Assembly (NCBI GenBank): GCA_905250025.1
Contig: CAJNOJ010000098.1
Span: forward strand, 1 to 64,000
DNA: 64,000 nt
Direction: 5' to 3'
Origin: Adineta ricciae
Taxonomy: Eukaryota > Rotifera > Eurotatoria > Adinetida > Adinetidae
Shown: positions 1,801 to 31,878 of the stretch, piece by piece
Layout: every line of letters starts with the position of its first letter
Position numbering within the stretch: the stretch's first letter is position 1
Program-made: the position numbers and the translations under genes
Notes under the pieces: generated by a model
What the model was told of the DNA's origin: nothing
The model's input: the letters and a program-made list of their open reading frames with translations, nothing else
Database searches by the model: none

Positions 1801-2450
1801 CATTGTCTCGCGGAACTCTGCATTAAAGTCAACAGAACGAGAAGAAACATATATATGTAAATGTGTAAGAGAAACGAAGGAAAGATACATGTTGGAAAAT
1901 TCTTCATCGTAAGTTATACTGCAACAATACTTCATGACGGAGTCGCTCATTTAGGATTTGATGCGATTAAAAACGAAATAGAATAATCAGCGAGTATGTC
2001 TTTTTAATGTAAATTAACGTAACGGCACTGTTATTGAGATAAGTCACACAAATAAACTTGCTACTTTGATAGTTATTATAGCGATATTCATGGCGATGCT
2101 ATTCTGCCCATTCTCTTCCTTCTTCTCCTTGTATTATCCATATTTACCCGTGTGATTCTGGTCGCAAATATAACTGCGTGCTTTTGCCTGTGTAAGATGT
2201 AGCTATTGAGTGGAAGAAATAAAGGAAAGCGTAATGTCGTCAGCTCTAACACATGTTGTACCAAAACTCGTCACACTTACTTTCACATTCTTTGACACGA
2301 CTACACGACAATCCTTTCCTTACAGTTTCGAACCACTACAACCATCTGTACAAACTGGATAAAAGTCGTATATCAAAGCATTTCTAGTCGTTTTCTTTAT
2401 GTGTTTAGATCAATAAATGGATTCTGAAAACTATAAAAAAACACTTGTCA
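1801..2450. other. Intergenic region upstream of the ADP-ribosyltransferase gene
   Basis: No convincing coding potential on either strand. It should contain the promoter and 5' UTR of the gene starting at 2451. No clear TATA box or splice pair was identified. Confidence 0.4.
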
Positions 2451-4457
2451 ATGCCTACTAACACATCTGAATCATGTTGTGACAGTAATCCAGAAATCTC
2501 AACAACATCGCAGTCGAATATTCCTCATGTGACTATTGTACTCTATGGCATCAACACCTCTTTCAATCCACTTCTCACACAACAACTTCACCGTCTCCAG
2601 CATTTTCACATCGTTGAAGTTGATGATATCGATGAATGGGTCGATTCCATGACATCTCATCCCAATGAAACTACCGTCGTTCTTATCGTCAAAAAATTCC
2701 AGTTCGCCGTTATACAAGCCCTTCACGAACGAGTGCCCCAGATAAAACGTATCTATTCGATGAGAGATCAGCATGGGATGTCGATACATGATGGTCATGG
2801 TAGAGCTGCACTTCGGAATGCTTATATCGATATTTCAGCAATGGTTGATGATTTATGCACATGGGTAAAACAGAATTCGGTGAATATGAATAAAACGAAA
2901 TCAAGTCACAGTTTGGATGGTGAACCTGCTGTTTTCATGTGGTATCAGTTCTTCTTCAGTCTCTTGACACATCTCGAACCAACCTCGATTGCGTTGCGTG
3001 AATTTATTACTGCTTCGTATACTGAATTCAATGATAATAAGATATATAAAATACACGTAAAGAAATTTGAGCGCTCTTACACACCAGAAGAAGCCATCCA
3101 GTGGTATACTAACGATTCTTTTCTATATCGAATAGTAAATGCAAGGCTTCGAAGTCAAAACATCGATGCAATATTCGAATGTCGATCGATTTTGTTAGAT
3201 CTTCAGAAACAATTGCAACATCTGAAAGATCAGCAAAAAAATAAAAGAAAGGGTGAATTCATCGAAGTTTATCGTGGGCAACAAATGAGCCTGCACGAAA
3301 TACGATACTTTCATGAAAACGAAGGTAACGTGATCGCAATAAGTCCGCTACTATCAACATCCAGAGAAAGACTGATAGCAGAAGCGTTTGCAGGAGACGG
3401 TCTGTACAGTTCAGAACTCTGCGGAGTGCTGTTAATTATTCGTATTCCATCGCATGTTCAACAAGCACTATATGCAGATATCTCACGTCGGAGTTCTTTT
3501 GAGCCAGAAGAAGAAGAAGAACTAATATGTTGGAGATCTCTGTTTCGTGTGGATGAAGTAGAGCTGCAAGCACCACATCGATATAACATACAACTGACTC
3601 TGATTGATGAACATGATCCACAATACCACCAACAACTGATGACATGGAGAACAAGTCTTGATGATCGAAGTTTCTTCACCGGTCGATCCACACAATTGTA
3701 TATGCGAGATCTGAATGAAACCAATGGACCATTTCTAAGCTATCAAGTGCTAATGGATATTGTGTTACGACTCAAACCAACAGTTTATGCAAGACAGGAG
3801 ATGTTCGAATACTGTCGAACGCAGTATGCGACAAGTCCTGGTATCTTAACTCAGATCGATGAGTTTGAGAAAACGTACAGAAGTGAAAATGCTGCTAAAT
3901 GGTACACAAAAGATTCATTTCTTTATCGTCTTCTAAACTCGACTCTTCGACTGGAGAAGATCGACCGGATCTTCAAACTTCGTTTGTTCATCCAAGATTT
4001 GCACAATCAGTTGCATGCCTTACAAGAAGAATACATTCGAACACAACGTCAACTGCATACTGATGTGTTGAGACTTTATCGAGGTCAAGTGATGACGAAG
4101 ACTGAACTAGACGAGTTCAAGATCGGCAGTCGAATGTCAGTGAACTGTTTCTTATCAACAACGGTTAATCCAACTAAAGCATATGATTTTGCCTGTGATT
4201 TCGATGGTGTTGTTCAAGATCCAGATGTGTCGGTGGTGTATGAAATCACTGTCGACCTTACGGTGCCTCATTCGACACCATTTGCTTCGATCGCTGATGT
4301 GTCTGTGAATCCAGATGAGAGAGAAGTTTTGTTTTCGATGGCGGCTGTGTTCGAAATCACGGACATTGTGCAAGAGAAAGAGCGTGTGTGGAAGGTAAAA
4401 TTGACGATTGTGAACAAAGCTGATGAGAGTTGGAATGTGCTGACTGCTCATCTTTGA
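2451..4457 (+). CDS. Tandem double-domain mono-ADP-ribosyltransferase (ART, R-S-E class)
   Basis: Single-exon gene of 668 aa from the ATG at 2451; an in-frame TTG six bases upstream is not needed. The first ~145 residues form an unassigned alpha/beta-looking domain. Two ART catalytic units follow. Unit 1 has the arginine motif YRG (R275), the STS-type LLSTS (S302) and a glutamate run EEEEEL (353-357) that can supply the E-x-E. Unit 2 has LYRG (R544), FLSTT (S569) and ERE (E623/E625). A helical linker shared by both halves (the AAKWYTKDSFLYRLLN type) precedes each unit, so the protein arose by internal duplication. The family transfers ADP-ribose from NAD+ to protein arginines or other acceptors. 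Both active sites look intact. No signal peptide or membrane segment is visible. ART genes are strongly expanded in bdelloids; substrate and role here are unknown. The next gene starts about 290 bp downstream on the same strand and also encodes an NAD+-binding fold. Confidence 0.85.
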   Translation: MPTNTSESCCDSNPEISTTSQSNIPHVTIVLYGINTSFNPLLTQQLHRLQHFHIVEVDDIDEWVDSMTSHPNETTVVLIVKKFQFAVIQALHERVPQIKRIYSMRDQHGMSIHDGHGRAALRNAYIDISAMVDDLCTWVKQNSVNMNKTKSSHSLDGEPAVFMWYQFFFSLLTHLEPTSIALREFITASYTEFNDNKIYKIHVKKFERSYTPEEAIQWYTNDSFLYRIVNARLRSQNIDAIFECRSILLDLQKQLQHLKDQQKNKRKGEFIEVYRGQQMSLHEIRYFHENEGNVIAISPLLSTSRERLIAEAFAGDGLYSSELCGVLLIIRIPSHVQQALYADISRRSSFEPEEEEELICWRSLFRVDEVELQAPHRYNIQLTLIDEHDPQYHQQLMTWRTSLDDRSFFTGRSTQLYMRDLNETNGPFLSYQVLMDIVLRLKPTVYARQEMFEYCRTQYATSPGILTQIDEFEKTYRSENAAKWYTKDSFLYRLLNSTLRLEKIDRIFKLRLFIQDLHNQLHALQEEYIRTQRQLHTDVLRLYRGQVMTKTELDEFKIGSRMSVNCFLSTTVNPTKAYDFACDFDGVVQDPDVSVVYEITVDLTVPHSTPFASIADVSVNPDEREVLFSMAAVFEITDIVQEKERVWKVKLTIVNKADESWNVLTAHL

Positions 4458-4654
4458 TGATGATGATGTTGACAGTTCTATTAATAATAAATTATAAATA
4501 AAAATCCATGAGAGAGAATTCTTTTAGTTGGACGAAACCGAAGTAAAAAGAAAAAAAATGGTTGTCTTTCTTCCTAGGAAACACAACTTTTCTTTTGGTT
4601 TCTTTTTTCTCTAACACATGGTGAGTGGAGCATTGGTAAACCGAAAACATTCAG

Positions 4655-4732
4655 GTAGGTAGTCGAAAAGCACATTATCAGATGTATAAAATGAAGAAAA
4701 ACATTCGATTAAGGCAAAATATTCTGTTTCAG
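4655..4732 (+). other. Putative 5' UTR intron (or trans-splice acceptor) of the SIR2-NACHT gene
   Basis: A good donor, CAG|GTAGGT at 4655, and a pyrimidine-rich acceptor, CTGTTTCAG at 4732, lie just before the ATG at 4750. The 78-nt size is within the local intron range. The acceptor alone could also serve spliced-leader trans-splicing, which is known in bdelloids. Confidence 0.4.
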
Positions 4733-4749
4733 ATACACGTAAGTAAGAA

Positions 4750-7700
4750 ATGGCAGATGATCTTCATAAACTGAAAAAGGACATCGCTTCGAATCAAGTG
4801 CTGATCTTCGTCGGCTCCGATGTATCCATGTATACAGCATATGGCGCAGAAAAGATTTCCTTCTGGAACAAAATATTAAAAAGTGGACTCAATCAATGTT
4901 ATCACATGAATAAAATCGACGCAAAAGATTTTGACGCTTCTATCAAACAATTGAGTAGCAACTTTATAGACGTTGACAATCATATCCTTATAACTGATCA
5001 TATTAAGTATTGGCTCACAGAAGAAATCAATGTGTACGAAAGTTGGCTGACGAATACTATAAGACAATTACACATACAAAATCCTGGACTTATCGAAACG
5101 ATCAAAGGATTACAGTGCCCAATCTTTACAACAAACTATGACTTATTTCTGGAAAATGTGCTCAACAAGAAAGCATTAACATGGAATAACTATCTAACTG
5201 AAAGTGATTCGTTGATAGATACCAATGATTATATTCTACATATCTATGGACATTATAAAACACCTGGCAGTATGATTTTCAATAGTGCTGATCATCGTCA
5301 ACTCCATCATGATGAATTCGTTCGGTCGAAATTCCAATCACTCATCCGAGGTAAAACTTTGTTATTCATTGGCTATGGAACTAGTATAGTTGATCCTAGT
5401 TTCTCACACCTTTGCAAGTGGATATTCGATATAAGCAGCGATCACTCACCAACAATTTATAAACTTGTCCAAGCAAATATTCGGCATGCAGTTTTTGAAA
5501 GTATCAAAGAAATCTACTATGGAAATACTTATGAAGATCTGTTATTCTTTATTCAAAGTCTTTCCTCATTCTCCATATTATTTCGTGAGAATTTGTCATT
5601 CACTAATCGAAAACGCAATGTTCGAGAGAAATACTTAAACTATTTGATAGATGAATATGGTCACGTGTCAATGTTTGGGTATACCGATAATGACCTATCA
5701 TTGCCATTGGAAAGTGTGTATGTCGAATTGAAATTTGATCCGACGCATCCGTCGACAAAAGCGATGAAAACAGTTGAAATCAACGAAGAATTCAAGCGAA
5801 AAGTATCATCTCACGGATTTTTCAGTGCAACGGAAAAAGGAAAGTTGATTCAAGCCATCGCGAAACGAAATGATTATAATCCTGAAACAATCTATCGAGA
5901 TCTGATGATTGACCAATGGTTAAATGTTCTTTTAACGAACAGAGAAATCTTTTCCGCTGATGAAGCAACAACAATCCGAAGCAAAATAAGTAACTTAAAG
6001 GAAGTGATCCTCGAAAAAAATCACCTGAAAGAAGCAAGACAGTATCAAATTCGAGAAGCATACAATGAATTCAAACATTTCATTATCCTCGGTCATCCCG
6101 GTTCAGGAAAAACCACCATATCAAAATGGTTAGTCATGAATATGGCACAACAATGTTTAGGAAAGAAGAATACGTTATTTGATCAGATAGATATCTCAAG
6201 AGCAAAGCTGCCAATTCTAATTCCAATTTGGAAATACGTCGATCAAGTTAAAGAGAATTGTAAGAAACAAAAAACAACTTTACTTCAATTCCTATATGAA
6301 AACGCCACGTTAAACTCTGCTGCATTCACCAAAGAAGAACGAAACGATCTTTCGGCATTGATCATCGAAATGTTAATACGTGGTAATGTGTTGATCATCT
6401 TCGAAGGTTTAGATGAAGTTCCAGCTCACGTTGATCGAACTGATCTAATGAAAGATATCAACACCTTATTAGAACGTCCGATTGACTATGATCCCCGATC
6501 GGGTAAACTTACACATTCTCTGTACGAACAAAAAGAAATCAATAACACGAAAGATCCAACAATTGGAAATCGAATTCTTATCACAAGTCGAATTGAAGGA
6601 AACTATTTCGAAGATATTAACTTCTATATCCCACGATTCACCATTCAGGATATGTCAAATGAAGCTTTGAAATTATTCTGTAATTCCTACACCAAATGCA
6701 TCCGAGGATCACTGATCGACGAAGCCAAAGCTGATCAATTGTATCATGAGATAACCCAGAACAAAGATATTTTTCAATTAGCAATCAATCCACAACTAGC
6801 CAGTGTTATCGCTGCTGTTTATAATCAATATGAAGATAAACTACCCGAGAAACGAATTGATTTATACGAAAAAGCAATTGAGAAAATGATTGATCGATTA
6901 GTTACATCTTCGCTCAATGAAGATCATCAGCTAAATGCCATAATGTTATGGTCAATACTGCAAACCATAGCTGAATATCTTCATAGTAAAGTCGAAGGTT
7001 TGTCTGAAAATAATCTTCGAACAATCATTCACCGATGCTTACTCGATTTGAACGAACAACATATTGACGATTTCACTTCAAATCTCGTGGATGTTTTTAA
7101 ATACAAAGTGGGTCTATTGAATGAATTCGGCTATGATAGTTTCCGATTTATTCATCGAACCTTTCAAGAATATCTCGCAGCTAAAAGTCTTCTCTATCGA
7201 AATGGATCTGTACGATCGGAAGACTCCATTTATGAAAATATCCGAAATAAAATCGATATTCCGAATTGGCGAGTACCTCTAAACATGACATTTGGTATAT
7301 TGAGCAAATATCATCAGCACAATGGTTTATTCACTGGTATTTTCAAAAGATTATTAGCCAATGAGCAAGCGTCAGGATATTCGACTCTGATCGTACCGTT
7401 TGTGATTATTGATTCATTGAATGACATGTATTTTGCATCGAACGATGTAGAATATGAATTAATTCGAAAGTTAATACATATGTTACTTTGTGATTACAAA
7501 AATCAATCAGGTTTCTCCAGATTGAAGGATCATCAGAACTTCCTTCACTCATATTTTTTCAAATTAAAAGACAAATATGAAGATGTAATCGAATTTTGGT
7601 TCATTGAAATGCTTACCAATGAAGAAAATATCGCACCATGTGCAAGTATCGTCCTTCGATTGCAATGGTATTCCTCACAATTCCACGAAATATTCCTCCA

Positions 7701-10700
7701 AAACTTACACCATGATAGCGACATTTGGAATTGGCCAATCGATTCGATTTTGCGCTGGTATTCGACTGAAATTAAACGATTACCGATGAAACAAACTCTT
7801 ACAGACAATCTTCCGTTAGTTGAACATATTCAAAGGATTGCGGATTGGTTAGGTTTGATGATAGCATTGTATGGTGGACATGAAAACTTTGATATCCAAG
7901 CATCAATTTGCGAATGTTTTGAGACAGCTCAGTTTCTTGCCTTGAGCGATACCCAAAGGGCACCATTTATTTTTTATTACGAAAACAAGTGGGGCAAAGA
8001 TGATCCTGCTTATCAAATGGCTGTACATCTCGACACATTCCTAGCTAAGAAGAATTGGACTAATATACCAAGATTCAATCACGAGAAAATCTACAAAGAA
8101 TCGTTTTTAACATCAAGAATTATGAAATTGTTGAATGAACGAAGACCAACATCGGATTTAATTGAAGAATTGAAAGAATTAATCGATACTACAGATTTGT
8201 GTCTTACTTCGAAAATCGATGTCTTAATCGCCCTTGTTGCATTGGGAGTTTTTGATTTCGCCAATGTGGTTACAACAAATGCAGATGAAATATTGTTAAA
8301 AAGTTTTACCAAACGACTAGAACAATCAATTTCTGTTTTAAAAGATCCAGTTGCAAGATGGTCTTCATGTGTCGAGAAGTATCTTCTTACAATTTATAAC
8401 AATTTCGAGTCAAATCCAGCACAATGCTCTCCCAATTTTTCCGCATATTGTAAAATATACCTTTCTTTAATAATCTCCAGCGGTGGATTTCCAGTCGATA
8501 CATCGACGCTAGCTGCAACGATCAATGGAATTGGAAATAAATCTGATCTCTATGGTGAATATTTTTGTCAACAATTGACTTCCGGTTCCGAGGGAGATGT
8601 ACTGCATGGAATTCGCACGGTATCCAATATTTTGCAGAAAACCATGAAAAGCGATTTACTTATGCAATCCTTTCTGAAAACTAACGAAGCAATTCAGATT
8701 TACAGACCAGTTCGAGGATACGCATGGCCTACAGATCGATTCGCTTTTCAGTCATTCGCGGAAAACGATATACCCATTGCATTTTTCAATTGTTTAGAAA
8801 ATCTACACACGAATCTCGCATGTCTAATCGAAAGTATTTATGAAAAGTTCCTTGAAGAAGGATATTTCGATCGAAATCCGGACTTAATTCCGTTATTTAC
8901 ACTACTTATTTTTGGAATTATGTCGAAAGATTTAAACAAAACTAAGATTTACGAAAAATTGCTTCCTGAAATGTTCGATACAAAGAATGTCAAACAACTT
9001 TTATTAGAGAAAATACAAACTATATGCAATCCTTATTACAAAGCGAGAGCGTTGTATCAATTAGCTCAAGTTTATGATATAGAATCATTTGCACTTCTCA
9101 ACGAATCCTTCAATTTAACCAACAAAATTTCCGACGCATGTCAGAAATTTCAAGTTCTGGAAAAGATTTATAATGTTCTTCATTATAAGGAAGTCAATCG
9201 AAATGAATTCAGTGAACGAGTTGTAAGCGAGTTGATACTGACATGTGATTGTATAACGAACCTTCGTGATCGAATTATTGCGTTGATAAGATTATCATTT
9301 TATCAATCGGGACCAATGCGAAAACAAAATTTCATCAGTGCGTTAGAAATATTGAATCAAATGGATGAAAATGACGAAAAACTTCAATTAATTATCAAAT
9401 TGAAACCGTTAGTGGCTCTCTACGATGATCTTCATGTACGACTTGATAGAATCGTTGATTGTTTGGAAAATAATATATCTAAGGATTTGGTTAACTCATT
9501 TTACGGTAGAATATTGAGTCTTGAGCAGTTCAAAAGTTCCTCAGAGTATACAGAAATGCAAACGCTATTTCGACTTGTTGCACGACTGAATGATGCAAAA
9601 TTAATGCTGAATAAAGGTAATACTTCAGATCAACTATGGCTTCGTTTGTACAAAGACGTTAATGATCAATCGATTATTGCAAAGGTATTGGAAATAGGTG
9701 TAGAGAAAGAATTGTTTCTAACGCCACAGATTGCGATTATTATTGATGAATTAATCGAAAGGGGAGAAGAAGAGAAGATTTCAATTCTATTTCCATATAT
9801 CATCAAACCATCGAACGAAGTTTTACCGATTGTTCACCGATGGTTCACTAAACACCCAAAGCAAAAAATTAATGAACTAGCGGTTCTGTTACTGGCAGAG
9901 CATCAGCATATTTTCGAATCAGCAATCGATACAACTACTCATTTATTGGAAAATGAAAATGATCAAATAAGATATCGAACTGAACGACTTTTTCAGCATC
10001 CAGATCGAAATCCTAGTGTACCAAGTCGGAATGCATCTGTCATTGGAGAGAAGACTTTAATAAAACTTATTCAGGTAATACCAACGAAGGAACATATACC
10101 ACCTGTTCGAGCTTTTCTCAGCAGTTTCTTCTTCGATCTTTTGTGGGACGATTATCACATCTTTCAATATTTACATGAAAACTTTCGCAAATCCGAAAAC
10201 CAGCAAACGGTTTTTGCTAATAGGGTTCAATTCGTCACGATAGATTGTTGGAATACAATCATAGAATCAGCGGAATCATCGCAAGATTCATTATATATCG
10301 AAAATATTCTCAATTTAACCTTGGATCTAGTGGTAAATCATCAAGTTCTGGCAGACGACTGGGCAAGATTTGCGGACATATTATCAATGACGGATACGAG
10401 TCAATTTCGAGATCAGCGATACTTCTCTTCGAACGAAAGAGCAGTTATAAATTTGATGATCAATGAGATTTGTGTTTCGACAAATCTTGACGATGACACA
10501 TATTTCATAAATCTAGAATCGAAAATTGTCAACGAATTGACAGTAACGGTTGACGAACTTGCTCGAAGTCGTTTCAATCAAGTTGAAGAGATTGGTCGTT
10601 GTACTTTTCGCGTTTCAACAAGAAATATTAATGAAATCGTATTAGGAATGTTAAGTGATATACCGATTACAACATCGATGATGGACAATTTACTTCAATG

Positions 10701-11355
10701 GTTATTACAAAAAATATCGGATTTTCAAGGATTTAATGATTCGATATATTCGTTGATGATCGAGGAAAGTTTATTGGCATTAGTTTCAGTATGTGTGCAA
10801 AAAGAAGATTATCTCTATCGAAAAGTCACAAATTCGCCGAAATTCAACAAGATTCTCTTGATTCAACTGTTGCAGAAAATGATTCACCATCATCCGTACT
10901 TTTTAGCGAGAGGTAGTGCTTTTGTTCTACTGGCAGCATTGGATTTAACCGATCATAAAGTGATTATCAACTCTTTAAATGTACTGTTCGATGAGAATCT
11001 AGTGAAAGACTATTCGACGATTGGAATTCCGTTGATTCATTTGTCACCAAACGACTTTATCGATGATTTATTGAAAATCTTAACGAATGAAAGTGCGATT
11101 AAAATTTATGAACTATTGAAAATCATCACACAGTTCGCTTTAGATGAGAAGATCGATGCCGATTGTAAATCAAAGATAATCGATTACGTAGTAAGAGAAA
11201 TCGGACAAGTACAAGCGAAGAAACCGGTGAATTACTACTACACTGAGATTAGAATTCCATTTACTGCAACATTAGAAAATGAGTTGTACAAAACATGGAT
11301 TAAAATACAAGGATTCTCAGGTAAAACTCAATATGCTGTCACAATTAATAATTAA
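4750..11355 (+). CDS. SIR2-NACHT STAND ATPase with a long helical C-terminus
   Basis: A 2,201-aa protein in one uninterrupted exon, unusual beside neighbours with an intron every few hundred bases. Residues ~10-260 form a SIR2-like NAD+-binding domain: FVGSDVS (nucleotide loop, ~20-26), TTNYD (127-131), the candidate catalytic histidine in HIYGHY (164) and FIGYG (~207). A NACHT-type P-loop NTPase follows: Walker A GHPGSGKTT (448-456), Walker B LIIFEGLDEVP (548-558), sensor ITSR (~610), and a winged-helix HRTFQEYLAA near 801. The remaining ~1,380 residues are helical and repeat-like, probably the ligand sensor. This is the layout of bacterial SIR2-STAND (Avs-type) and NLR immune proteins, in which ligand sensing drives oligomerisation and the SIR2 domain degrades NAD+. 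Function here is inferred. No signal peptide or membrane segment is visible. Base composition resembles host genes, so any transfer is not very recent. Confidence 0.9.
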   Translation: MADDLHKLKKDIASNQVLIFVGSDVSMYTAYGAEKISFWNKILKSGLNQCYHMNKIDAKDFDASIKQLSSNFIDVDNHILITDHIKYWLTEEINVYESWLTNTIRQLHIQNPGLIETIKGLQCPIFTTNYDLFLENVLNKKALTWNNYLTESDSLIDTNDYILHIYGHYKTPGSMIFNSADHRQLHHDEFVRSKFQSLIRGKTLLFIGYGTSIVDPSFSHLCKWIFDISSDHSPTIYKLVQANIRHAVFESIKEIYYGNTYEDLLFFIQSLSSFSILFRENLSFTNRKRNVREKYLNYLIDEYGHVSMFGYTDNDLSLPLESVYVELKFDPTHPSTKAMKTVEINEEFKRKVSSHGFFSATEKGKLIQAIAKRNDYNPETIYRDLMIDQWLNVLLTNREIFSADEATTIRSKISNLKEVILEKNHLKEARQYQIREAYNEFKHFIILGHPGSGKTTISKWLVMNMAQQCLGKKNTLFDQIDISRAKLPILIPIWKYVDQVKENCKKQKTTLLQFLYENATLNSAAFTKEERNDLSALIIEMLIRGNVLIIFEGLDEVPAHVDRTDLMKDINTLLERPIDYDPRSGKLTHSLYEQKEINNTKDPTIGNRILITSRIEGNYFEDINFYIPRFTIQDMSNEALKLFCNSYTKCIRGSLIDEAKADQLYHEITQNKDIFQLAINPQLASVIAAVYNQYEDKLPEKRIDLYEKAIEKMIDRLVTSSLNEDHQLNAIMLWSILQTIAEYLHSKVEGLSENNLRTIIHRCLLDLNEQHIDDFTSNLVDVFKYKVGLLNEFGYDSFRFIHRTFQEYLAAKSLLYRNGSVRSEDSIYENIRNKIDIPNWRVPLNMTFGILSKYHQHNGLFTGIFKRLLANEQASGYSTLIVPFVIIDSLNDMYFASNDVEYELIRKLIHMLLCDYKNQSGFSRLKDHQNFLHSYFFKLKDKYEDVIEFWFIEMLTNEENIAPCASIVLRLQWYSSQFHEIFLQNLHHDSDIWNWPIDSILRWYSTEIKRLPMKQTLTDNLPLVEHIQRIADWLGLMIALYGGHENFDIQASICECFETAQFLALSDTQRAPFIFYYENKWGKDDPAYQMAVHLDTFLAKKNWTNIPRFNHEKIYKESFLTSRIMKLLNERRPTSDLIEELKELIDTTDLCLTSKIDVLIALVALGVFDFANVVTTNADEILLKSFTKRLEQSISVLKDPVARWSSCVEKYLLTIYNNFESNPAQCSPNFSAYCKIYLSLIISSGGFPVDTSTLAATINGIGNKSDLYGEYFCQQLTSGSEGDVLHGIRTVSNILQKTMKSDLLMQSFLKTNEAIQIYRPVRGYAWPTDRFAFQSFAENDIPIAFFNCLENLHTNLACLIESIYEKFLEEGYFDRNPDLIPLFTLLIFGIMSKDLNKTKIYEKLLPEMFDTKNVKQLLLEKIQTICNPYYKARALYQLAQVYDIESFALLNESFNLTNKISDACQKFQVLEKIYNVLHYKEVNRNEFSERVVSELILTCDCITNLRDRIIALIRLSFYQSGPMRKQNFISALEILNQMDENDEKLQLIIKLKPLVALYDDLHVRLDRIVDCLENNISKDLVNSFYGRILSLEQFKSSSEYTEMQTLFRLVARLNDAKLMLNKGNTSDQLWLRLYKDVNDQSIIAKVLEIGVEKELFLTPQIAIIIDELIERGEEEKISILFPYIIKPSNEVLPIVHRWFTKHPKQKINELAVLLLAEHQHIFESAIDTTTHLLENENDQIRYRTERLFQHPDRNPSVPSRNASVIGEKTLIKLIQVIPTKEHIPPVRAFLSSFFFDLLWDDYHIFQYLHENFRKSENQQTVFANRVQFVTIDCWNTIIESAESSQDSLYIENILNLTLDLVVNHQVLADDWARFADILSMTDTSQFRDQRYFSSNERAVINLMINEICVSTNLDDDTYFINLESKIVNELTVTVDELARSRFNQVEEIGRCTFRVSTRNINEIVLGMLSDIPITTSMMDNLLQWLLQKISDFQGFNDSIYSLMIEESLLALVSVCVQKEDYLYRKVTNSPKFNKILLIQLLQKMIHHHPYFLARGSAFVLLAALDLTDHKVIINSLNVLFDENLVKDYSTIGIPLIHLSPNDFIDDLLKILTNESAIKIYELLKIITQFALDEKIDADCKSKIIDYVVREIGQVQAKKPVNYYYTEIRIPFTATLENELYKTWIKIQGFSGKTQYAVTINN

Positions 11356-11408
11356 TGTTAAAATTCGTTTCAATGAGAATGGAAAAGATATTATGTACTT
11401 TTTTGTCA

Positions 11409-13288
11409 CTAAAATAACATTCCTTTCCGAATAAACCCGAATTTCACATGAAGAATTATCCGTTCGATCGCACACCTCTTTGACGCTACGATTGATTCAG
11501 TCAAGTGTTTTTGACAGATATCATCGATGGATCGACTAAAACTACCGCTCTTCCCCATTTTTGGTCGCATATAGCCATTGGAATGAGTCTCTAGTATACT
11601 GTAGAGCTGAACTAATCGAACATACTCGATGCGTAGATCAAATGTATCACAAATGTCATTTTTGTTTTTGGAATCTTCTTTCACTGCGAGTCGATAATGC
11701 GTATCATCGATTTCTATTTGCAAAAAAAAACCAATGAAACCATACGTTACGAAACAATGAATATCTAGTTCGTGTTTGATACGTCGTCGGACACTGACTG
11801 GTTCATGACGCAAGTTGTTTGAGTAACTTAATCAAATTTCCTAAAGTGACCAACGCATCTCGACATAAATGAAATGAATTAAAATCGGACGATGTTTTCG
11901 GTTGAAGTAAAGTTTGATCGGTTAATTCATTTTTCAATTGATTCCGCATCGACTGTAACACATGAATATTTTCACCAATCGACGATTCGATCGAGTTCAG
12001 CGTTTCGATTGATGACGCGATCAGTTCTTGAAACGATGCAGTGCACTCAAATCTTACTACAGATAACAAACGGTTGAATTGTTTCACTAACTGAAATACA
12101 ATCGAATGAACGGAAATTTCATGTTCAAGTCCAACGTACGGTTTGTAACGTTCTTTCGGCTTCTTCGCAAGATACATTTGTCGACGAGACCGATTCGACT
12201 TGAGTAATTTCGATGTTTATGTCCGATGCATCGACATTTTCCCTCTTGACAAGCCTCGAACAACAAACTTGAAGCATCTAAAGATGAATTATTTTGAGGG
12301 AGAGAAAGATTTCTCAAAGAAGTCTCACTTGAACATTGTTGTACAATTGAGAGAACGAATTGAAAACCGTAACAAACAATGGAAGTTGATAAAAATTGTC
12401 TCGATTTTCATGAAAGAGTGACTTGGTCGATTCGAACGTTTGACAAATGTTATTTAATTGATTGAGATGAGTCGAGAGCTGGTCTGATCGTTGAAAACTT
12501 TGTTGTAGCGGGATAATTATTCCGAAAACATAACCATAAATAACGCAGATCTTTTCGTAGATCTGTTGGTGTATTCGATTCGAACAGTCTTGATCGACCA
12601 GCTGACGAGCTTTTTGCATCAATTCGTTTATCGAGTCGTTGAACGAATATTCTAAATGCATAGAAGATCATTTCACATGAAAATATTTGAAGCTGTGATT
12701 ACCAATCGATAATCTAGAAGAAATCCATAAGCACACATGGTGATATTCAATTGATTTCTTACTTATATGGTTCTTCATGTGAACGAGATTCTTCTTCATT
12801 CGGCGGGATGTCATTTGTAGTTGTTGTTGTCGTCGTAGATGGTGGTGGTGGTAAATCATCATCTATTGAAACAAATAAACTGTAGAAGGCTGAATGAGAG
12901 TGATTTCTTACCTTCGTGAGTACATAAATAAACAACAATGTTGTTTCCATGCAATCCATTTCGATTAATGTATTCACGGAATGTTCTGTATTGAGATGCA
13001 TTGATTCGTTGTCTTTGAAAATCGTATAGATAGGTTTGATTCTGCTTGTGACCTATAAAAAAATACAGGAATAGTCTCATTCAATGTAATCATCTTACGT
13101 AGGTTATAAACCTTGAGAAGCTCTTGATGAACATCGTGAAAATTCATTTGCCCATGCCGCCATTGACAAAGCCGAGTGCCGCCACCACATTTCAGATCCA
13201 CTGTTTTGATCGTACCATTGCTGTTCAGAACAAGACGACCACAACGAAATTTCTTTCTCGGTTGATATTTTCTCGGACGGTTAGGCAT
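11409..13288 (-). pseudogene. Multi-exon gene of unknown family, reading frame apparently broken
   Basis: I do not recognise this family. Exons on the minus strand: 13099-13288 (ATG at 13288 in a good context, basic and Cys-containing), 12912-13052, 12763-12862 (acidic, ending in a poly-Pro/poly-Thr run), a possible 11-nt exon at 12703-12713, 12329-12651 (helical), then 12277 down to 11409. Introns are 46-51 nt with good GT-AG ends. In the last exon the frame encoding FEACQEGKCRCIGHKH must shift near 12180 into the frame starting YLAKKPKERYKPYVG, then shift back near 11813, where one stop overlaps the next ORF as ATGA. The two shifts compensate. This could be a decaying gene, a pair of sequence errors, or missed micro-introns. 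The exon 5 to 6 phase also fits poorly. It sits tail-to-tail with the SIR2-NACHT gene and head-to-head with the TIR gene, so it shares a ~515-bp promoter region with the latter. Confidence 0.45.
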
Positions 13289-13803
13289 GGTTTTCTTTCG
13301 TTTCTTTGTCTGATGAAAATGTGCTAGCTTATCTAAAACCCTTTTCTTCTTTATTCGATTTAACAGAACGAAAGAATACGTCATTCTGAAGCCAATGATA
13401 AAACTCCTTTAGATACACTATTCATCTATAATTACGAATTATAGAAAATGTTGGGAACGACAAAATAACAATGCATTTTCTCGCCATGTTTAGTGTAATA
13501 TTTCTAACGCCAATAACCATAATGGTTACACATATATCAACAAATTTGTCATTTGTTTGTATCATTACGTGTGTATCATCTGTTTCTTGTGGGAAACAAA
13601 GATTATAGTGCAAGAAATCACTTCGGTCAATCACGTGATAGATCTTTCATACTTATACAAATCAGTTTGTTCTTACGAAAACAAACTTTTTTTCGTTAAT
13701 TTAGGTATGAATGTTTATCTAACTACAACTTTACTGTTTTCTTTTTACTTGTGGTATTTGTCATTTGCTTTTTCTTTCCATTTTCAAATACCGCATAGTA
13801 TCA
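13289..13803. other. Divergent promoter region with a possible 5' UTR intron
   Basis: Lies between the minus-strand gene starting at 13288 and the TIR gene starting at 13804. A GGTATG donor near 13705 and a CGCATAG acceptor just before the ATG suggest a 5' UTR intron on the plus strand. Small ORFs here do not look coding. Confidence 0.35.
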
Positions 13804-16137
13804 ATGGAGTCTCTCGACCAACTTACACAATCCTTCGATGCAATAATTACAAAATATGATGAAAAGAGCAATTCATTCACAGATTTATCTTCGTTAAAGG
13901 ATTTCTTACAATTGATTTCTCACTCCAATGAAAAACATCTGTACGAGTCCGATTTGCTTCATCATCGTCTATTTGTTATTCTTCGCGATTGGTATTTGAA
14001 ACTTCTACGTCAGTGGCGACTGAACACACTATCAAACAATGAACAAGTGTCTTTTATTTTCGAAACAATACCCAATCTGTTCATTAAAATGTCCAATCAC
14101 ATATCCGAAAAGAATCTGTCAACTCTAAGAGAACTAATCTTTCATCAGCCATTAATCAATGAATTAAATATTTGTTTAGAAGAAATAGCATCAAGCGGAA
14201 AATATCTCCAAGATTCTCAAATCAAATCTCTTGATAACATCTTTCGAGCCATTCAACGATTAGAACGACACAGATCCGATACGAAGGTAGACGCTTGTCT
14301 CACAAAGTTATTTGACAATATTGTGAAATGTATTTGTTCACCATCATTCATCGACATGTTTATTCACTCTACTACACAAGAGAATGACGGACCCGGACAA
14401 AAATTTCTCTTACACACATGTACGGATTATATTTATTCACATCCAACTGATCAACAACATAAACAAAGTTTAATTGATATTCGTCGATCACTTTTACAAC
14501 CATTTTCACAATGGTTAGTGCAGCAGTCTTCATCGTATCAACTATGGAATCTACGAATGACAGTCATCTTACGTCAACTATGTTTCATTCTTACTCTTAG
14601 TCTTCAACTGAATCGATCAATAGACCTCGATAAAGATACATTCGATCAATATTGCCGATTGATCGATTCATTTCTAAATATTCTCCAATCAATTATACAA
14701 ACGGAAAACTTGATCAATAATAAAATAGCTTTATCTTTGATGGGAACACTGACACCAAATCTTTATACAATGACGTTATCAGGTCAACTGGAAAAGTACA
14801 TTAAAAACAAACATATGACATCATTAGTTTTAAAATTAGCCGATATCGAGAACGATGAAATTCAGTTGAATGCATTTCGAATTCTTTCGATAATCATCAC
14901 TGAACAAGATGCAAACAATACTTCAAATGCCATGAATATTGCAGATCTATTCATGAAATTTCTTAGTAAAGTAATCGATGATCAGAATCAAATGTTAAAG
15001 TTTTACAATTTACTTCGTTGTCTGAAACGTGAGTCTTCTTACACATAGAGCTCCATTGAATCTTTCTCCTCACATAGATTTAATTCAATACGATCCAATC
15101 AAAGATGAACTCGTCAAACAGAATGGTATTCCATTACTTGTCCGTTGTGCTACGGATATTAAATTCAAACCTCTCCAAGTGCAACAACCTGCTTTGGAGA
15201 TTCTTCTGTCATTAACGTTCAACGAACATGCATATCGTCAATTGAAACAAAATCTCCCTCAAATCAAACCGTTAATATCATCGCCGCATCAAGTTGTTAG
15301 CCGAGTTGTGGATGGTCTTCTATGGAGATTAGAAACTCAAGAGAAGCGACTTGTTAGTAAAGGCAATACTTGGAAATATGATGTGATGATTTCATATTCT
15401 CATTCGGATAAAGAATTGACTTATCGAATTTATGATCTGTTGATCAAAGATGACGTGCGGGTTTGGATGGATCGTGATGAGACGTTTGGCACAACGATGA
15501 TTACGAAGGCGGATGCTATTGATCAATCAAACTATATTCTCATTTGTGTTTCTGATGAATACAAAGAGAATTTGTATTGCCGATGTGAAGCGACTTATGC
15601 GGCTGATCGTCACTGTCAAATAATTCCATTGATTTTAACATTAAATGCTCATCCCGATGGATGGTTATCGGATGTTATTCGTCGTAAAAGTTATATCGAT
15701 TTCGTCGTCTTAGATTTTGATTTAGCTTACAAAACATTAAGAAGTGAACTGTGTTCGGTAGAAATTCATCTATCGAAAAACGACATACGATCTGTTCGAG
15801 TGAAAACGTAATGTCTTCAATTTATTTTTCATTCTTACAAATTTTTCTTCATTATAGTGAATATCCAGAAACGATTGAGCAATGGACAAATGAAAATGTA
15901 AGAGAATTTTTGCAAGAATATCAATTTGATTGTTTATTACCAGTTATCTCACCGATGAATGGATGTCTTCTAAATGATTTGTTTACAATGTGCCGACAAA
16001 ACCGTGAATCAATGTTTCATACAATAAAAAATGAAATTTTAGCGCTGAATAAACATGCACAACCATTGACACTCTATACTTATCTACGTTTTTTGAATGA
16101 GATTCAGAAATACGTCACAAAAGCTGTTTATTACTAG
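13804..16137 (+). CDS. Helical-repeat (ARM-like) - TIR - SAM-like protein, candidate NADase
   Basis: Three exons: 13804-15028, 15078-15807 and 15858-16137, with introns of 49 and 50 nt and intact phases, giving 744 aa. Residues 1-~500 are all-helical and resemble ARM/HEAT repeats. A TIR domain spans ~508-640, opening KYDVMISYSHSDKE, with the BB-loop region WMDRDETFG. The aligned catalytic glutamate lies in CRCEATYAA (E579), matching the position needed for NAD+ cleavage in SARM1 and bacterial TIRs. Residues ~653-744, starting IEQWTNENVREFLQEYQF, look like a SAM domain. SARM1 is ARM-SAM-SAM-TIR; here the order is ARM-TIR-SAM, so this is not a plain orthologue. By analogy the helical part would hold the TIR inactive and the SAM would oligomerise it. 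The ATG at 13804 was chosen because it follows a likely acceptor; in-frame codons upstream look non-coding. Confidence 0.8.
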
Positions 16138-16768: not shown

Positions 16769-17049
16769 TGCTTTTTTTCTGCTACTCCATTTTACTTCAA
16801 TGATGACAACACTAAATCTTCAGATCGTTCATAAGATTGTAGAACTTTCATTCCCTCTCAGTCATCTGTTGCGTATAAAAGTTCTTCAATTCACTACTCC
16901 TGCATTTACAGTTAAAAAAAATAAAGTCGAATATTAGAGTTGATCAATAGCACGAAGTCAATGCGATTTATTCGAGATTAATGAGTAAAAGGATCGTGAT
17001 TTTGTAAACGGAAAGAAGTGAAGGATATTATGTTAGAATCTTATTTTTC

Positions 17050-17692
17050 TTAGCACGATTTGTTCTCTTTTTTTACTTGTTCTTCCTGAAAGAATCAAAC
17101 ATTCCTAATATGCATAAATTTCAATTCGAAACAAACGTACGTCTTGTGGTGTGAAATCATTCTTGATATTGAATTGACGACGAATTTCTTCTGGTCCGCT
17201 GCCTTTGATCGTGTTTGCAACTGTTTTACAGGTAACGTCGAGGAGACCTTTGATATCTAAGTAATTGGCCGCCAAGATCAACTCGAAGAGCGTGCCTTGG
17301 TCAACTTTAAGGAAATCTTGATCCCATGGTGATATATCCGAAAGATTCTTTTCCCGATTCTCATCGTCTTCTGTTAGAAGTGGATCATCCTTGTGATGTG
17401 TTAACCATTGAAGAATCTTTAGTGTAAACAGTAAGAGCGGAAAATAATGAAATCCTATCACTGTTTACTTTTTTCAAAATTGCAGAATTAACATTTGGTA
17501 ATGGAATCACATCATCTTCTACACCCGAATTGTAATCTAATTATGAAATGCCATTCACTTGTGATTAAGTTCTACATTTGCCTACTCACTTTTAAGTACT
17601 TCTGATTGTTGGAGAACTTGAGGGTTAACCTCAAAGATATCGCCCTCATTGGATTGTAATTTGATCATATTTGAATCCATCGAAGAAGCCAT
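17050..17692 (-). CDS. SKP1 paralogue with altered C-terminus (copy 1)
   Basis: Four exons on the minus strand (17590-17692, 17469-17536, 17141-17416, 17050-17085) give 160 aa. Exon sizes of 103, 68 and 276 match the canonical copy at 19683-20332 exactly. SKP1 is the adaptor joining F-box proteins to CUL1 in SCF ubiquitin ligases. The BTB/POZ-like core is preserved ([35 protein letters not shown]). The last exon ends [11 protein letters not shown] in place of ...ENEWCEEK, removing the conserved WCEEK tail that contributes to F-box binding. The N-terminus ([18 protein letters not shown]) and exon 1 are more diverged than the core. The ORF is otherwise intact, so it may be a working variant with changed F-box preference. 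Confidence 0.85.
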
Positions 17693-18282
17693 GTTTCACT
17701 CGAGTATAAAATCGAAATATAAAAATATATGTATAGGTATATTTATACTAATTCATCATTTAAGATCATTCGTAAAAAGTGCGATATGGAAATAAATGAG
17801 TGACTATGGCATCAGTAGTTCACGGAAAAACGAGATATCGCCCGTAATGGCTGGAAAAAACCTACAAAGCACAGCAAGGAAGAAGAAAAATGCTTCTTCC
17901 TGTGTGCATAAGAAAAAAGGTTCTTTTTAAGGTGAAGACCGTTATATTTCCATTCGTTCTCTTTTTCTTCCTACGTTTTCTGGAAACGGCAATCTACGGG
18001 AACTGCTTACTGTGTGTTCTAGCATGAACACAAATTCAGATCTTTTTTCTAACATTCAGACTAATACAATTAAAATGATGCCCCATCCAAGCGAGACTTT
18101 TCTGTTAACATTTGCTTTCGAAGTAGACGTTTACTCTGGAGAAGATGAGTGACAACATCCTCGCCTCACGCTATATCAGAGTTGATCATTACTATAAAAT
18201 CAATACGCTTTATTCGAGATTAATGACTAGAAGAATCAAACATTTCTAATATCGAAATATTTCAATTTGGGAGAAACTCGTA
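17693..18282. other. Intergenic spacer between SKP1 copies 1 and 2
   Basis: No gene seen. The block near 18180-18230 (GATCATTACTATAAAATCAATACG...TTATTCGAGATTAATGA) repeats the sequence just past copy 1 at about 16930-16985, so the tandem duplication included 3' flanking DNA. Confidence 0.5.
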
Positions 18283-18836
18283 CTTCTTGTGGTGTGAAAT
18301 CATTCTTGATATTAAATTCGCGACGGATCTCCTCTATATTCTTGCCTCTCAGCATATGTGCAACGATTTTACATGTGACATTGAGTAAACCTGTGATGTT
18401 TAAGTAGTTGATAGCCGTAATTAATCCAAAAAGTGTGCCTTGGTCAACTTTGAGAAACCTTTGATCCCATAACGATATTTCCGGAACATTTCTCTGGCAG
18501 TCTACATCGACTTCTGTTTTAGGTAGATCATCTTTGCGATGAGTTATTCATTGGATCACATTGATTTAAAATGGTAAAGATGGAAACTGTTGTGTCACGT
18601 CAGTATTTACTTTTTTCGAAATTGCTGAATTAACATTGTCTTATGAGACATAGGACCACCTTTACCCATGCCGAAGTCTAATAAAAAAAACAATATTAAT
18701 TTGAACATCGAGTTCATTAAACCAAAAATGTACCTTCCAACTTTTCTTTAATCAACTGTGATTGTTTGGCGACCTCTTCATCAATATCGTACGTATCACT
18801 ATCATTCGATTTTAATTTGATTGTACGTGTAGCCAT
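18283..18836 (-). pseudogene. SKP1 pseudogene (copy 2)
   Basis: Starts with an intact ATG exon (MATRTIKLKSNDSDTYDIDE) and ends with NDFTPQE before a donor-like GTACGAG. Several defects are visible. The conserved Trp codon in VIQW is TGA (near 18550), and the acceptor AG expected just before that exon is missing (TTTAAATCAATGTGATCC). The final EEQ...WCEEK exon is absent: the expected acceptor is followed by unrelated sequence. Residues in the core have drifted ([15 protein letters not shown]). It is the most diverged of the three copies. Confidence 0.75.
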
Positions 18837-19682
18837 ATGCGAAGTAATATTTAATTTGAATATCTAATTCAAAGATAAAAATACGTCTCTATGTATTCAT
18901 ATACCTACAACGAATGACTGTCACCTTATATGAAAGGGAAAATACACTCTAATACCTATTAACCGATAATATTTTTGGTAGTGCTTGGAAATTATTTACT
19001 ATACGAAACTGAAGAGCAAAATCAGCTTCCAGACGCCTGCACACTTGATTGCTTCATAATCCAATATACATAACCAAAAACTGTTTCTTTTGTCTAACAA
19101 ACAAGAGTTGCTTACGCTTCGTAATTCATTCTCTCTAAATTATAATATAGTGCCAAGTATTGAACTGAGAAATGCTTCCCTGTACGTGACCAATCTACCT
19201 CACAATAGCGTGACAGAAGCAAACGACTTACTTGATTATCACGTAAGATAGATGAATGTCATAAAGTTCGTGTGTTGCAGTTTCTAATTGATCAATTCAA
19301 TACTTGGGCACTACAACTATGATCTTTGGAATTAACACTTTCATTTAGTATCATATCTATGAAGAACTTCAAGTCATGACTATTCAGACCTCGCTTTCTT
19401 TGATTCCACGTTTTCTTGTCACATTCTTTCATTACGCGTGTGCTTTAGGAAGAACTAATCTTAAAGAATTTCTATTGAACTAAATCCTATTTACAAACTT
19501 GTACGCTCGCATAGTGTAGAAAATCAATGGGACAGTCAGCGATGAGACTAGTTCATCAATTTCACGTTCAAAGATTGTGTCAAGAAAGTCGTCGATGAGA
19601 ATTCTGTGTTATCACAAAAGTTAGTGCAATTTATTTTAGTAAGAAAGAAATCAATATAGTAGTATCAACAGAAAGAACGCGT
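18837..19682. other. Intergenic region between SKP1 copies 2 and 3
   Basis: About 850 bp with stop codons in all frames and no recognisable coding exon, RNA or repeat. The promoter of copy 2 would lie at its left end. Confidence 0.4.
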
Positions 19683-20332
19683 TTATTTTTCTTCACACCA
19701 TTCGTTCTCTTTTTTGATTTGTTCTTCCTAAAAGAAAAAAAATTCTAATATGCAAAAACTTCCGTTCGAAAGAAACGTACTTCTTGTGGTGTAAAATCAT
19801 TCTTGATATTGAATTGACGACGAATTTCTTCTGGTGTTCTGCCTTTGATCATGTTTGCAACTGTTTTACAGGTAACGTCGAGGAGACCTTTGATATCTAA
19901 GTAATTGGCCGCCAAGATCAACTCGAAGAGGGTGCCTTGGTCAACTTTGAGGAAATCTTGATCCCATGATGATATATCCGAAAGATTCTTTTCCCGATTC
20001 TCATCGTCTTCTGGTGGAGGTGGATCATCCTTGTGATGTGTTGCCCATTGAATAACCTGAAATTCATCAATGCAAATGAAAACTATTCATTTGTATCCTT
20101 GTCATTGTTTACTTTTTTCAAAATTGCAGAATTAACATTTGGTAATGGAATCACATCGTCTTCTTCACTCATACCGAGATCTAGCAATAATCAAATAGTA
20201 GAAATGAGCTAAGTGAAATGGATCTGTACCTTCTAACATCGTTTTGATTGTTACAGATTGTTTGGCAATTTCGACATCAACATCGAATGTATCACCATCA
20301 TTCGATTGCAATTTAACTTTGTTTCCAGCCAT
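19683..20332 (-). CDS. SKP1: SKP1, SCF ubiquitin ligase adaptor (canonical copy 3)
   Basis: Exons 20230-20332, 20113-20180, 19781-20056 and 19683-19727 join in frame to 163 aa, the same length as human SKP1. It reads [16 protein letters not shown] at the start, then [36 protein letters not shown] and [20 protein letters not shown], ending WCEEK. Introns are 49, 56 and 53 nt. SKP1 links F-box receptors to CUL1-RBX1 in nucleus and cytoplasm. As the only copy with an intact canonical tail it is probably the housekeeping gene. The 36.4-38.1 kb F-box/LRR gene is a possible partner class. Confidence 0.93.
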
Positions 20333-27317: not shown

Positions 27318-28476
27318 CTATTTACATGTCAATAGTTTCCTAATTTCGTCATGAATTTTGACGATGGCATCGAATGTCAGCTTGAATTTAGTCATTAAAA
27401 AACGAACGTCCGCTTGATGCGGTTTACGTATGTACCATTCTCGTAATAATTGATAAGCGCATTCATGGTTTCCATCGGCAAGAAAATATTTTTCATGAAT
27501 ATCGAGTAAATCAACTTCAGAGAAGCAGGGGGCTAGTTCACGACCAATAGTCTTCCATTGACAACGAATAGGCTCGGCAAGACGATGAATAAGTTTCGTA
27601 TCACTTAATTTCAACTAATCAAAGAGAAATAAAAGCATTTCATTGACAAAGATAAAAATCTTACGTTGCATTGATCACTAATTATTAGGCAGGATTCGTC
27701 AGATGAAAGAATACATCCACAAGTTTCGGTATGAGCATCTTTCTGAAAGAAATCAAACGAGTTCCTTTATCTCTATTGACGTTATAGATCAGATATCGCA
27801 CTTGAGGAAATGAAGCTGGGACGATTTGATACTCTGACGATAAGCTAAGATTGAGTTCGTATATAGGCGATTCGTTGTTATACGACCCATTGGATGGATC
27901 CAATGATTCAAGAAATAATTTACCAATTACACCAGGACCAATTTGATTATTCTAATAGAATATATCGAAATAAATTAAAGTAGATTTTCATAACTAAATA
28001 CTTTTAATTGCAGGGCAAATTGCTTGTCAAAACTATGATTGGAATGTTCTTTCTTTACTATTTCTAATTTTGTTAAAGATGGATCTTCATGCACATCCGT
28101 ATCAGCAGTAAATAATGATGAAACAAGACGAACTCGCACTACTCCTATGAAATTCCAATGACAAATCGATTCTCATAAAATAAGATATTCTACCTGGCTT
28201 GATCACTTTGCCCAATCGACTTCTTGCTAACAAAATCGATTGATTATCACTGATGATCTCATTTGTAGAGTTAACAATCACATCCAAAGTACATTTACAC
28301 GTTGTTGGATATAGTTTTAAATAAACTTGACAATGATATTCTTTTCTCCGATCTTTCTTTTTGAGTATCTTCTTTGTATATTGTATTGAACACTGTTTAA
28401 TTCTCTTTCTTGAAAAGAAATCGTCTTCGTCACCATCAGGATAAAGTCGCTTTAAACCTTGATGATATGCAGCCAT
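27318..28476 (-). CDS. Death-domain protein
   Basis: Minus-strand gene of about five exons. The model starts at MAAYHQGLKRLYPDGDEDDF (28476), although the frame is open upstream to an acceptor near 28512, so an earlier exon is possible. Exon joins seen: KVIKPG|VVRVRLVSS near 28150-28193, then a block around 27690-27960 (YQIVPASFPQVRYLIYNV), a short exon, and the last exon 27318-27614. The last ~90 residues form a death-domain fold with the usual helix pattern: LIHRLAEPIRCQWKTIGREL, FSEVDLLDIHEKY, AYQLLREWYIRKP, VRFLMTKFKL. Death domains build adaptor complexes in apoptotic and innate immune signalling. The ~250-residue N-terminal part has beta-rich character (YHCQVYLKLYPTTCKCTLDV) and I cannot place it. 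No kinase, TIR or caspase domain is attached. Confidence 0.65.
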
Positions 28477-30504: not shown

Positions 30505-30507
30505 TTA

Positions 30508-31355
30508 GTACAATTCAGCAGTATTGAGAGAGACAGAACCAGTAAATCCTCCAGCAACCAAAACTCGCCCATTCAATAGTGTGGTTGCTGAATGTCCTCC
30601 TCGTATGGAATTCATGCTTGGAATTAACGTCCGTGTGTTCGCCGTTGGATCGTATATCTCAGCGCTTTTAATATAACCACCACTATTTCTGCCGCCAGAA
30701 ACTAATATATTTTTACTTGGTAGGATGGATACCGCGTGCCGAGTTCGCCGAACATTCATACTTTGTTTCGTTGACCATGTATTTGTTGAAGGATCATACA
30801 GGTTAACATCATTGAGAAAGTTACTACTATCTTGCCCACCGACAACCAGTATTGTTCCATCCGATAACGTGACTGCCACATGTTCGAATCGTGCGCTTGG
30901 CAGGCTTGCTTTGATTGACCATGTATTTGCTGCTGGATCATACAGCTCAACGCTATCGAGATTACCACTGTTACCTACTCCACCTATAATGAGTATTTGT
31001 CCATTTGATAATGTTGATGCAGCATGACTCGATCGCGCCATATTCATATTTGCTCTTGGGGTCCAAGTATTTGCCCATGGATTATACACTTCAACAATAT
31101 TGAGATAGTCACTGCTGCCTCGTCCACCAGTAATTAACACCGTTGCATCTAGTAGTAACGATCCTGTGTGAAGCCATCGTGGAATACTAATAGGAGCTTT
31201 TGATGTCCAAGTGCCTGTTCCTGGATTATACGATTCAGTAAGACTGGCAAAACCTGAACTAGATCCACTAATAATCAACAAAGTTCCATCGAATAATAAG
31301 ACCGCTGTATGTGAATCGCGTGCGATACTCATGCTTCCTGTTGTTATCCATCCTA
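30508..31355 (-). CDS. Kelch-repeat beta-propeller protein
   Basis: The open frame holds six Kelch repeats with the pattern Hxx(4 hydrophobic)...(I/L)GG...YDP..NTW, for example HAASTLSNGQILIIGG followed by VELYDPAANTW. Six blades make a complete propeller. A likely acceptor TTTATTTAG lies just before GWITTGSMS near 31355; the upstream in-frame stretch (LERNLFLTVYIY) looks intronic, so the true first exon was not found. The repeats resemble bacterial-like Kelch/galactose-oxidase-type propellers common in bdelloid genomes. Propellers bind partners; no catalytic residues can be assigned. It may be a 5'-truncated copy, since no signal peptide or second domain is visible and the protein ends with the sixth blade (NTAELY). 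Confidence 0.75.
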
Positions 31356-31878
31356 AATAAATGTAAACAGTAAGAAAAAGGTTTCTTTCTAAAAGTGTGA
31401 CGGCCGGTATAACATAAGTCATTCAAAAACAGACCTAGAACTGTAATTCGAGTATGATTCATAGCATACATGAGCTAATTGCAAGCTTACTGAGTGCTTC
31501 GGATTTTGGGGTGTGAGATCGCAGTATCTCTGGTTCTACGTATAGCTAATCTTTGTGATTTTTCCGCATGGGTTCCACTTAGATGTCCTCAATTAGCTCT
31601 AAGAGAACGACTAAATACAGCTCAAAATGCATTCTCTGTTACCATCTTTCGAGTAAAACGCTATAAGACCACGTTGTTGATTGACTTTTATTTTAATAGC
31701 CGATGACATTCACAGCATACAGTGCACGTATCTTCCATATAAAGCTCATTCTTTCTAACGACGTGCTTTTTAATCTGTTTTTTCTCGAAATACTATGTAC
31801 AAACAATTCTCAATTTTCTCGTGCGTAAAATCGAAATCCGTTCTGAAACACAACCGTTCATCAAAAGGAGTAGCTGCC
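31356..31878. other. Intergenic region
   Basis: No coding exon recognised. The 70-aa ORF at 31494 lacks an ATG start and family features. Confidence 0.35.

Follow-up and report, generated by a model that had tools for sequence, protein, structure and literature searches.

The stretch of DNA analysed here (the window, 64,000 nucleotides) covers the opening 64 kb of the 358-kb contig C98 in the 130 Mb genome of the bdelloid rotifer Adineta ricciae; C239, C208, C105, C264, C245 and the other contigs named below belong to the same genome. Open reading frames (ORFs) and Pfam matches place three genes on its plus strand, a double ADP-ribosyltransferase (ART) gene at 2451..4457, a SIR2-NACHT-helical solenoid gene at 4750..11355 and a TIR gene at 13804..16137, and by their Pfam domains each belongs to a family that handles nicotinamide adenine dinucleotide (NAD). 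An earlier note on this DNA had named these three genes, as we find them, and had proposed that together they form a defence island. Our main subject is the SIR2-NACHT gene, which we think, with some reserve, is probably a member of a bdelloid SIR2-NACHT-solenoid family working like a SIR2-STAND immune sensor, the tyrosine-glycine (YG) pair in its SIR2 domain being a kept functional variant and not a sign of decay.

The SIR2-NACHT gene is a single ORF in one exon encoding 2201 amino acids. The ORF is open on both C98 and its allele C239, and the ratio of nonsynonymous to synonymous substitution (dN/dS) between these alleles is 0.23 by NG86 and 0.33 by YN00, the two methods applied to allele pairs. 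The N-terminal SIR2 domain (SIR2_2, residues 1-280, 4750..5589; Pfam E-value 2e-15) has a fold like that of FAM118B, DSR2, ThsA and KomC, and in the alignment it keeps a TTNYD NAD-binding/catalytic motif (residues 127-131, 5128..5142) that reads TTNFD on the C239 allele. The NACHT/STAND NTPase region (residues 431-818, 6040..7203) has an intact Walker A motif, LGHPGSGKT, and an intact Walker B, and its fold resembles those of NLRP3, NLRC4 and NOD2. Pfam matched NPHP3_N to the protein (E-value 1e-6), and the nSTAND3 and NACHT models stayed under their curated cut-offs. In the structural model the NACHT fold has the winged-helix/helical parts found in NOD-like receptors (NLRs), and residues 1002-2201 (7753..11352) are predicted to form an all-helical solenoid, a putative sensor. 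Foldseek searches with this model bear out the earlier description of a SIR2 joined to a STAND NTPase, the protein being structurally a SIR2-STAND/NLR with the bacterial protein Avs5 as its best match.

Sirtuin chemistry is believed to require the histidine of a histidine-glycine (HG) motif. At that position the window copy has Tyr166 (codon TAT, 5245..5247), which the earlier note does not mention: KomC H146 aligns with it (one listed KomC entry being the H146N mutant), and the family alignment agrees. The motif is thus YG and neither HG nor NG, and when compared with the FAM118/SIRal active site the window copy keeps Asn129 and has tyrosine for the histidine. Across 49 family rows the position holds 27 H, 18 Y, 3 F and 1 Q, a count that excludes P0007 (no letter there) and P0033, P0044, P0045 and P0047 (which lack or may lack SIR2) and that includes near-identical rows (the two alleles, P0019/P0030/P0031, and the C105 and C208 pairs). 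Every outgroup-like row (P0040, P0041, P0043, P0046 and P0061) has H. Changes between H and non-H number 11 on a tree built without the histidine column and its neighbours and 12 on a quick tree with P0061, and there are at least eight when only well supported branches are counted. The earlier suggestion that such domains deplete NAD is in doubt for the window copy because the catalytic histidine is replaced by tyrosine.

The replacement could also mean that SIR2 is in decay in the YG copy and has lost its NAD chemistry, with the NACHT and solenoid alone being kept. The lost histidine, the TTNFD of the allele, a SIR2 domain that evolves slightly faster and the sequence GSDVS at the GAGxS motif would all fit such decay. 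We nevertheless judge it rather unlikely, given the frame open in both alleles, a SIR2 dN/dS of 0.31 between them, the tyrosine common to A. steineri and A. vaga copies, a replacement that is aromatic in 21 of the 22 non-histidine rows, and pocket residues (T127, T128, N129, D131 and G208) that are invariant across all H rows and all 18 Y rows. G167 is missing in two H rows. Several observations also weigh against the kept-variant, sensor-like reading that we prefer. The SIR2 dN/dS of the YG allele pair compares with 0.20 in the HG pair on C208, the ratio of SIR2 to NACHT divergence has a median of 1.78 in YG and 1.58 in HG rows (the pairs are not independent), TTNYD is eroded, with Ser at 128, in two of the three F rows, and GAGxS has Asp for its second Gly in the window copy and likewise in the HG copies of A. 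ricciae. Foldseek TM-scores (template modelling scores) are low, at 0.22-0.29, across the whole N-terminal model because its domain arrangement does not superpose, and the solenoid found generic helical-repeat matches only, the best with a TM-score of 0.15. Among published enzymes, the position in Avs5 tolerates Asn or His, with Ala and Gln inactive and Tyr not among the variants assayed, in the part of that report available (PMC12931631), and efficient NAD processing by FAM118B and FAM118A takes both proteins, with the His and Asn of each required, according to the available part of another (PMC12700824). Taken from the sequences, most of the NAD pocket looks preserved, with slight signs of relaxation.

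A protein search with the SIR2-NACHT sequence, which scored the candidates with the most words in common with it, found at least 73 proteins. Named matches at 55-68% identity come from A. steineri, A. ricciae, A. vaga, Rotaria sordida, R. socialis, R. magnacalcarata, Rotaria sp. Silwood1 and Rotaria sp. Silwood2, eight Adineta and Rotaria species or strains in all, and after a profile search the named animals of the family were still all bdelloids. The full-length relative P0046, at 38% identity, has the SIR2 domain with its His and GAGVS kept. Named distant matches lie in Bacteroidota, cyanobacteria and Rotaria NACHT proteins without SIR2, and the bacterial relatives share the NACHT and the long C-terminus, with CHAT, caspase or TIR in front. 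A close bacterial donor was sought by scanning bacterial and archaeal genomes with two peptide patterns and rejected, identity in the best segment being at most 26% among the matches listed. In a NACHT tree the SIR2 clade stands apart on a long branch, to which the usual long-branch warning applies. Horizontal transfer of the SIR2-NACHT gene from bacteria is plausible from these comparisons.

Among known systems Avs5 (AVAST type 5, a bacterial SIR2-STAND) is closest in plan: like the window protein it has an N-terminal SIR2, a STAND NTPase and a C-terminal sensor, and the window protein shows the SIR2-like domain, the TTNxD motif (TTNYD) and the Walker A expected of such systems. The HG histidine is moreover replaced in about half of Avs5 homologues; the Pseudomonas Avs5 has NG instead of HG, and the two occur at about 1:1 among homologues in the available part of the report (PMC12931631). 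The window gene differs in being an animal gene with an NLRP3/NOD2-type NACHT, a solenoid of about 1200 residues and Tyr instead of Asn. We do not count it as a member of Avs5, because it has neither GAGxS nor HG or NG and because the PADLOC hits of its protein (P0002) include no Avs model. Bacterial NACHT proteins with swapped effectors (CHAT, caspase, TIR), such as the Lewinella protein L038 from a metagenome-assembled genome (24%) and P0048-P0057, share the NACHT and long C-terminus of about 2000 residues, but identity is 22-26%, the effectors are others, and only P0061 (22%) also has SIR2. FAM118B/FAM118A (SIRal) are animal proteins with the SIR2_2 fold whose NAD processing needs both paralogues together, and they differ in lacking a NACHT, in keeping the His and in forming a vertebrate clade. 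Thoeris ThsA/ThsB likewise links SIR2 and TIR proteins to NAD and gave a SIR2 fold match; the window has no operon, and the Pfam scan found no SLOG domain such as accompanies SIR2 in the Thoeris effector that works with a TIR sensor. SARM1, in which SAM domains are followed by a C-terminal TIR, resembles the window TIR protein in having a TIR with a catalytic-position Glu behind a helical N-terminus, but in the latter Pfam found no SAM and the TIR is not C-terminal.

Within A. ricciae, a genome search in which all six SIR2_2 candidates were scored found the domain at six places only, all on C98, C239, C208 and C105. C239 is the allele of C98, with 95% DNA identity across 21 kb (window 2667-23698) and the order of the three genes kept. 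C208 carries two intact tandem SIR2-NACHT copies whose proteins are 56-57% identical to that of the window copy, and C105 carries two broken ones. On C208 each copy is preceded by an F-box-like gene (named by eye) and followed 526 nucleotides on by an ankyrin gene whose C-terminal part is ART-like. The ART domain of this ankyrin gene is weak (Pfam ART E-value 0.29; 24% identity to P0001, E-value 0.08), and we accept it as ART-like because relatives (on C270 and C480) match where the Pfam ART hits fall. On C105 two ART genes lie on the opposite strand, about 2 and 4 kb past where one broken copy ends. No relative of the window ART or TIR was found by tblastn (1e-5) in 39-40 kb around each of the C208 and C105 loci. 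The 17 kb and 54-62 kb parts of the window have counterparts of 64-75% DNA identity on C264 and C245, which are read as an ohnologous segment; ART matches also occur on both contigs, and neither has SIR2, all six SIR2_2 places being elsewhere.

The double ART gene (668 amino acids, P0110) lies in an ORF at 2445-4457 with a likely start at ATG 2451, and its Pfam ART match has an E-value of 1e-12. The two intact R-S-E sites claimed for it can be read in both ART domains as R, S-T-S/S-T-T and E-x-E, the R-S-ExE motif of arginine-type ARTs; the second domain (3897..4418, the best Pfam stretch, residues 485-658 of P0001) has YRGQ, LSTT and PDEREVLF. Its likely start is further downstream than that of the C239 paralogues (MDSENYERQ...), and the codons that open those paralogues are not in frame in C98. 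C239:50269-68770 holds the double ART at four places, namely two full-length ORFs, a 141-amino-acid fragment and the allele without the first 74 codons, and dN/dS against three C239 copies is 0.54-0.58 (NG86) or 0.56-0.70 (YN00). The TIR gene encodes 745 amino acids in three exons (13804-15028, 15078-15807 and 15858-16137) separated by introns of 49 and 50 nucleotides, and the spliced frame is open on both alleles, with a dN/dS of 0.12 (NG86) or 0.16 (YN00). Its TIR domain (15383..15709; TIR_2 E-value 3e-18) retains the catalytic-position Glu (codon 15587-15589), as had been stated, aligned with Glu in four of seven other TIR rows, the remaining three being uninformative. A similar N-terminal part is shared by the family of this gene, at 17 matching genome places with the window and its allele included.

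The proposal that the three genes are a co-selected, NAD-linked defence island draws on their common strand and short gaps (293 nucleotides from ART to SIR2-NACHT, about 2.4 kb to TIR), on the order preserved on C239, which is weak evidence because alleles share order by descent, and on the ART-type genes that adjoin SIR2-NACHT on C208 and C105 too. The earlier note had itself named loss of synteny as the observation to count against it, and adjacency is lost beyond the alleles. No TIR_2 lies on C208, C105, C264 or C245 among 140 matches (from the best 150 of 176 candidates scored), the ARTs at C208 and C105 are of other types (ankyrin-ART; ART with leucine-rich repeats nearby), and the A. vaga homologues sit on different chromosomes, SIR2-NACHT I4U23_004264 on an 18.1 Mb contig and double ARTs I4U23_011947 and I4U23_005791 on contigs of 20.4 and 16.3 Mb, with the caveat that the A. 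vaga SIR2-NACHT groups with the C105 copies and not the window copy. Both outer families are abundant, with 553 first-look ART candidates and 113 TIR loci once merged, and at least 3 of the 113 have one of 150 listed ARTs within 5 kb, against 1.3 expected under uniform placement or 4.8 with 553 ARTs (this and the ART-NACHT count below are lower bounds with the same null). In addition, two introns and a gap holding other minus-strand ORFs part the TIR from its neighbours, and the ART is fast-evolving, with an allele lacking its first 74 codons. We consider the island very improbable and reject it on synteny; the flanking ART and TIR genes, upstream and downstream respectively, belong to large, dispersed families and do not form part of one conserved unit, and the three-gene cluster as such is ordinary.

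A narrower alternative is a partnership in which ART genes come to lie, or are retained, next to NACHT/STAND genes, the window ART and SIR2-NACHT being one case and the TIR a bystander. The NACHT search (all 80 candidates scored, 40 matches, 38 over the cut-off) found at least 4 of 40 matches with one of 282 listed ARTs within 2.5 kb, against 0.43 expected on either side, all upstream and co-oriented as in the window (C133:175454-176998, C362:38821-40463, C154:40669-43032 and C158:215735-218154), which would favour the pairing and the island alike, as would the ART-type genes on C208 and C105. The Poisson P of 0.001 for four places becomes 0.07 (at least two at 0.43) if they are two events, since C133/C362 and C154/C158 may be copies; moreover, ART and NACHT may be two exons of one gene on C133 and C362, though they look like separate neighbours on C154 and C158. 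With uniform placement a weak null, the ART-like gene downstream on C208 and on the opposite strand on C105, and the double ART without synteny in A. vaga, such a partnership seems unlikely to us.

The remainder of the window holds a Kelch-repeat gene (30505-31422, minus) and a gene with an ARL2-binding BART domain (59696-60358, minus), both by Pfam. Three related copies of 70-88% identity occupy 17041-20314, with a minus-strand ORF that is SKP1-like by eye, and a minus-strand ORF at 27318-27614 resembles a Death-type domain, by eye only. A tandem repeat whose period is roughly 141 bases (36482-37268) lies inside a stretch of raised GC, and a dispersed repeat at 38001-39980, with dozens of genome matches at 77-96% identity, is probably a mobile element.

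Genome-wide, a TIR is in frame with the NACHT in 8 of the 40 NACHT matches (on C398, C449, C161, C550, C502, C148, C868 and C280), as called from match coordinates and equal open-frame lengths, and C564 is probably a ninth such place. No published bdelloid SIR2-NACHT family was found in the literature searched, most subscription papers being beyond its reach, and the main text of a fungal-attack study of A. ricciae and related rotifers has, in the part available, no NACHT, NLR, TIR or ADP-ribos (PMC11258130). The novelty lies in the repeated change from HG to YG and in how large the NAD-linked NACHT set of A. ricciae is.

From the computed domains, fold, intactness, selection and recurrent H/Y change we infer how the favoured SIR2-STAND-like sensor could work. 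The C-terminal solenoid would sense something, the NACHT would bind nucleotide and oligomerise, and the SIR2 domains would be brought together to act on NAD, so that the family may serve in immunity. The YG copy would have altered or silent catalysis and might act as a regulatory partner for the C208 and C105 paralogues that have HG. More tentatively, and with doubt prevailing, bdelloids may keep a bacterial-type SIR2-STAND sensor family with a recurrent HG/YG switch, in which matched catalytic and tyrosine paralogues co-assemble in one genome, within a wider NACHT set fused to or paired with TIR, SIR2 and ART effectors. Avs5 recently broke the HG-histidine rule with Asn; Tyr would be a second, independent and repeated replacement, in an animal family, and would show what the His position does, the HG and YG paralogues being natural paired variants for testing. 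If this is true, an animal lineage would be running bacterial-type SIR2-STAND sensors in numbers, beside TIR-NACHT genes, and the link of NAD to animal cell-autonomous immunity would become testable outside vertebrates.

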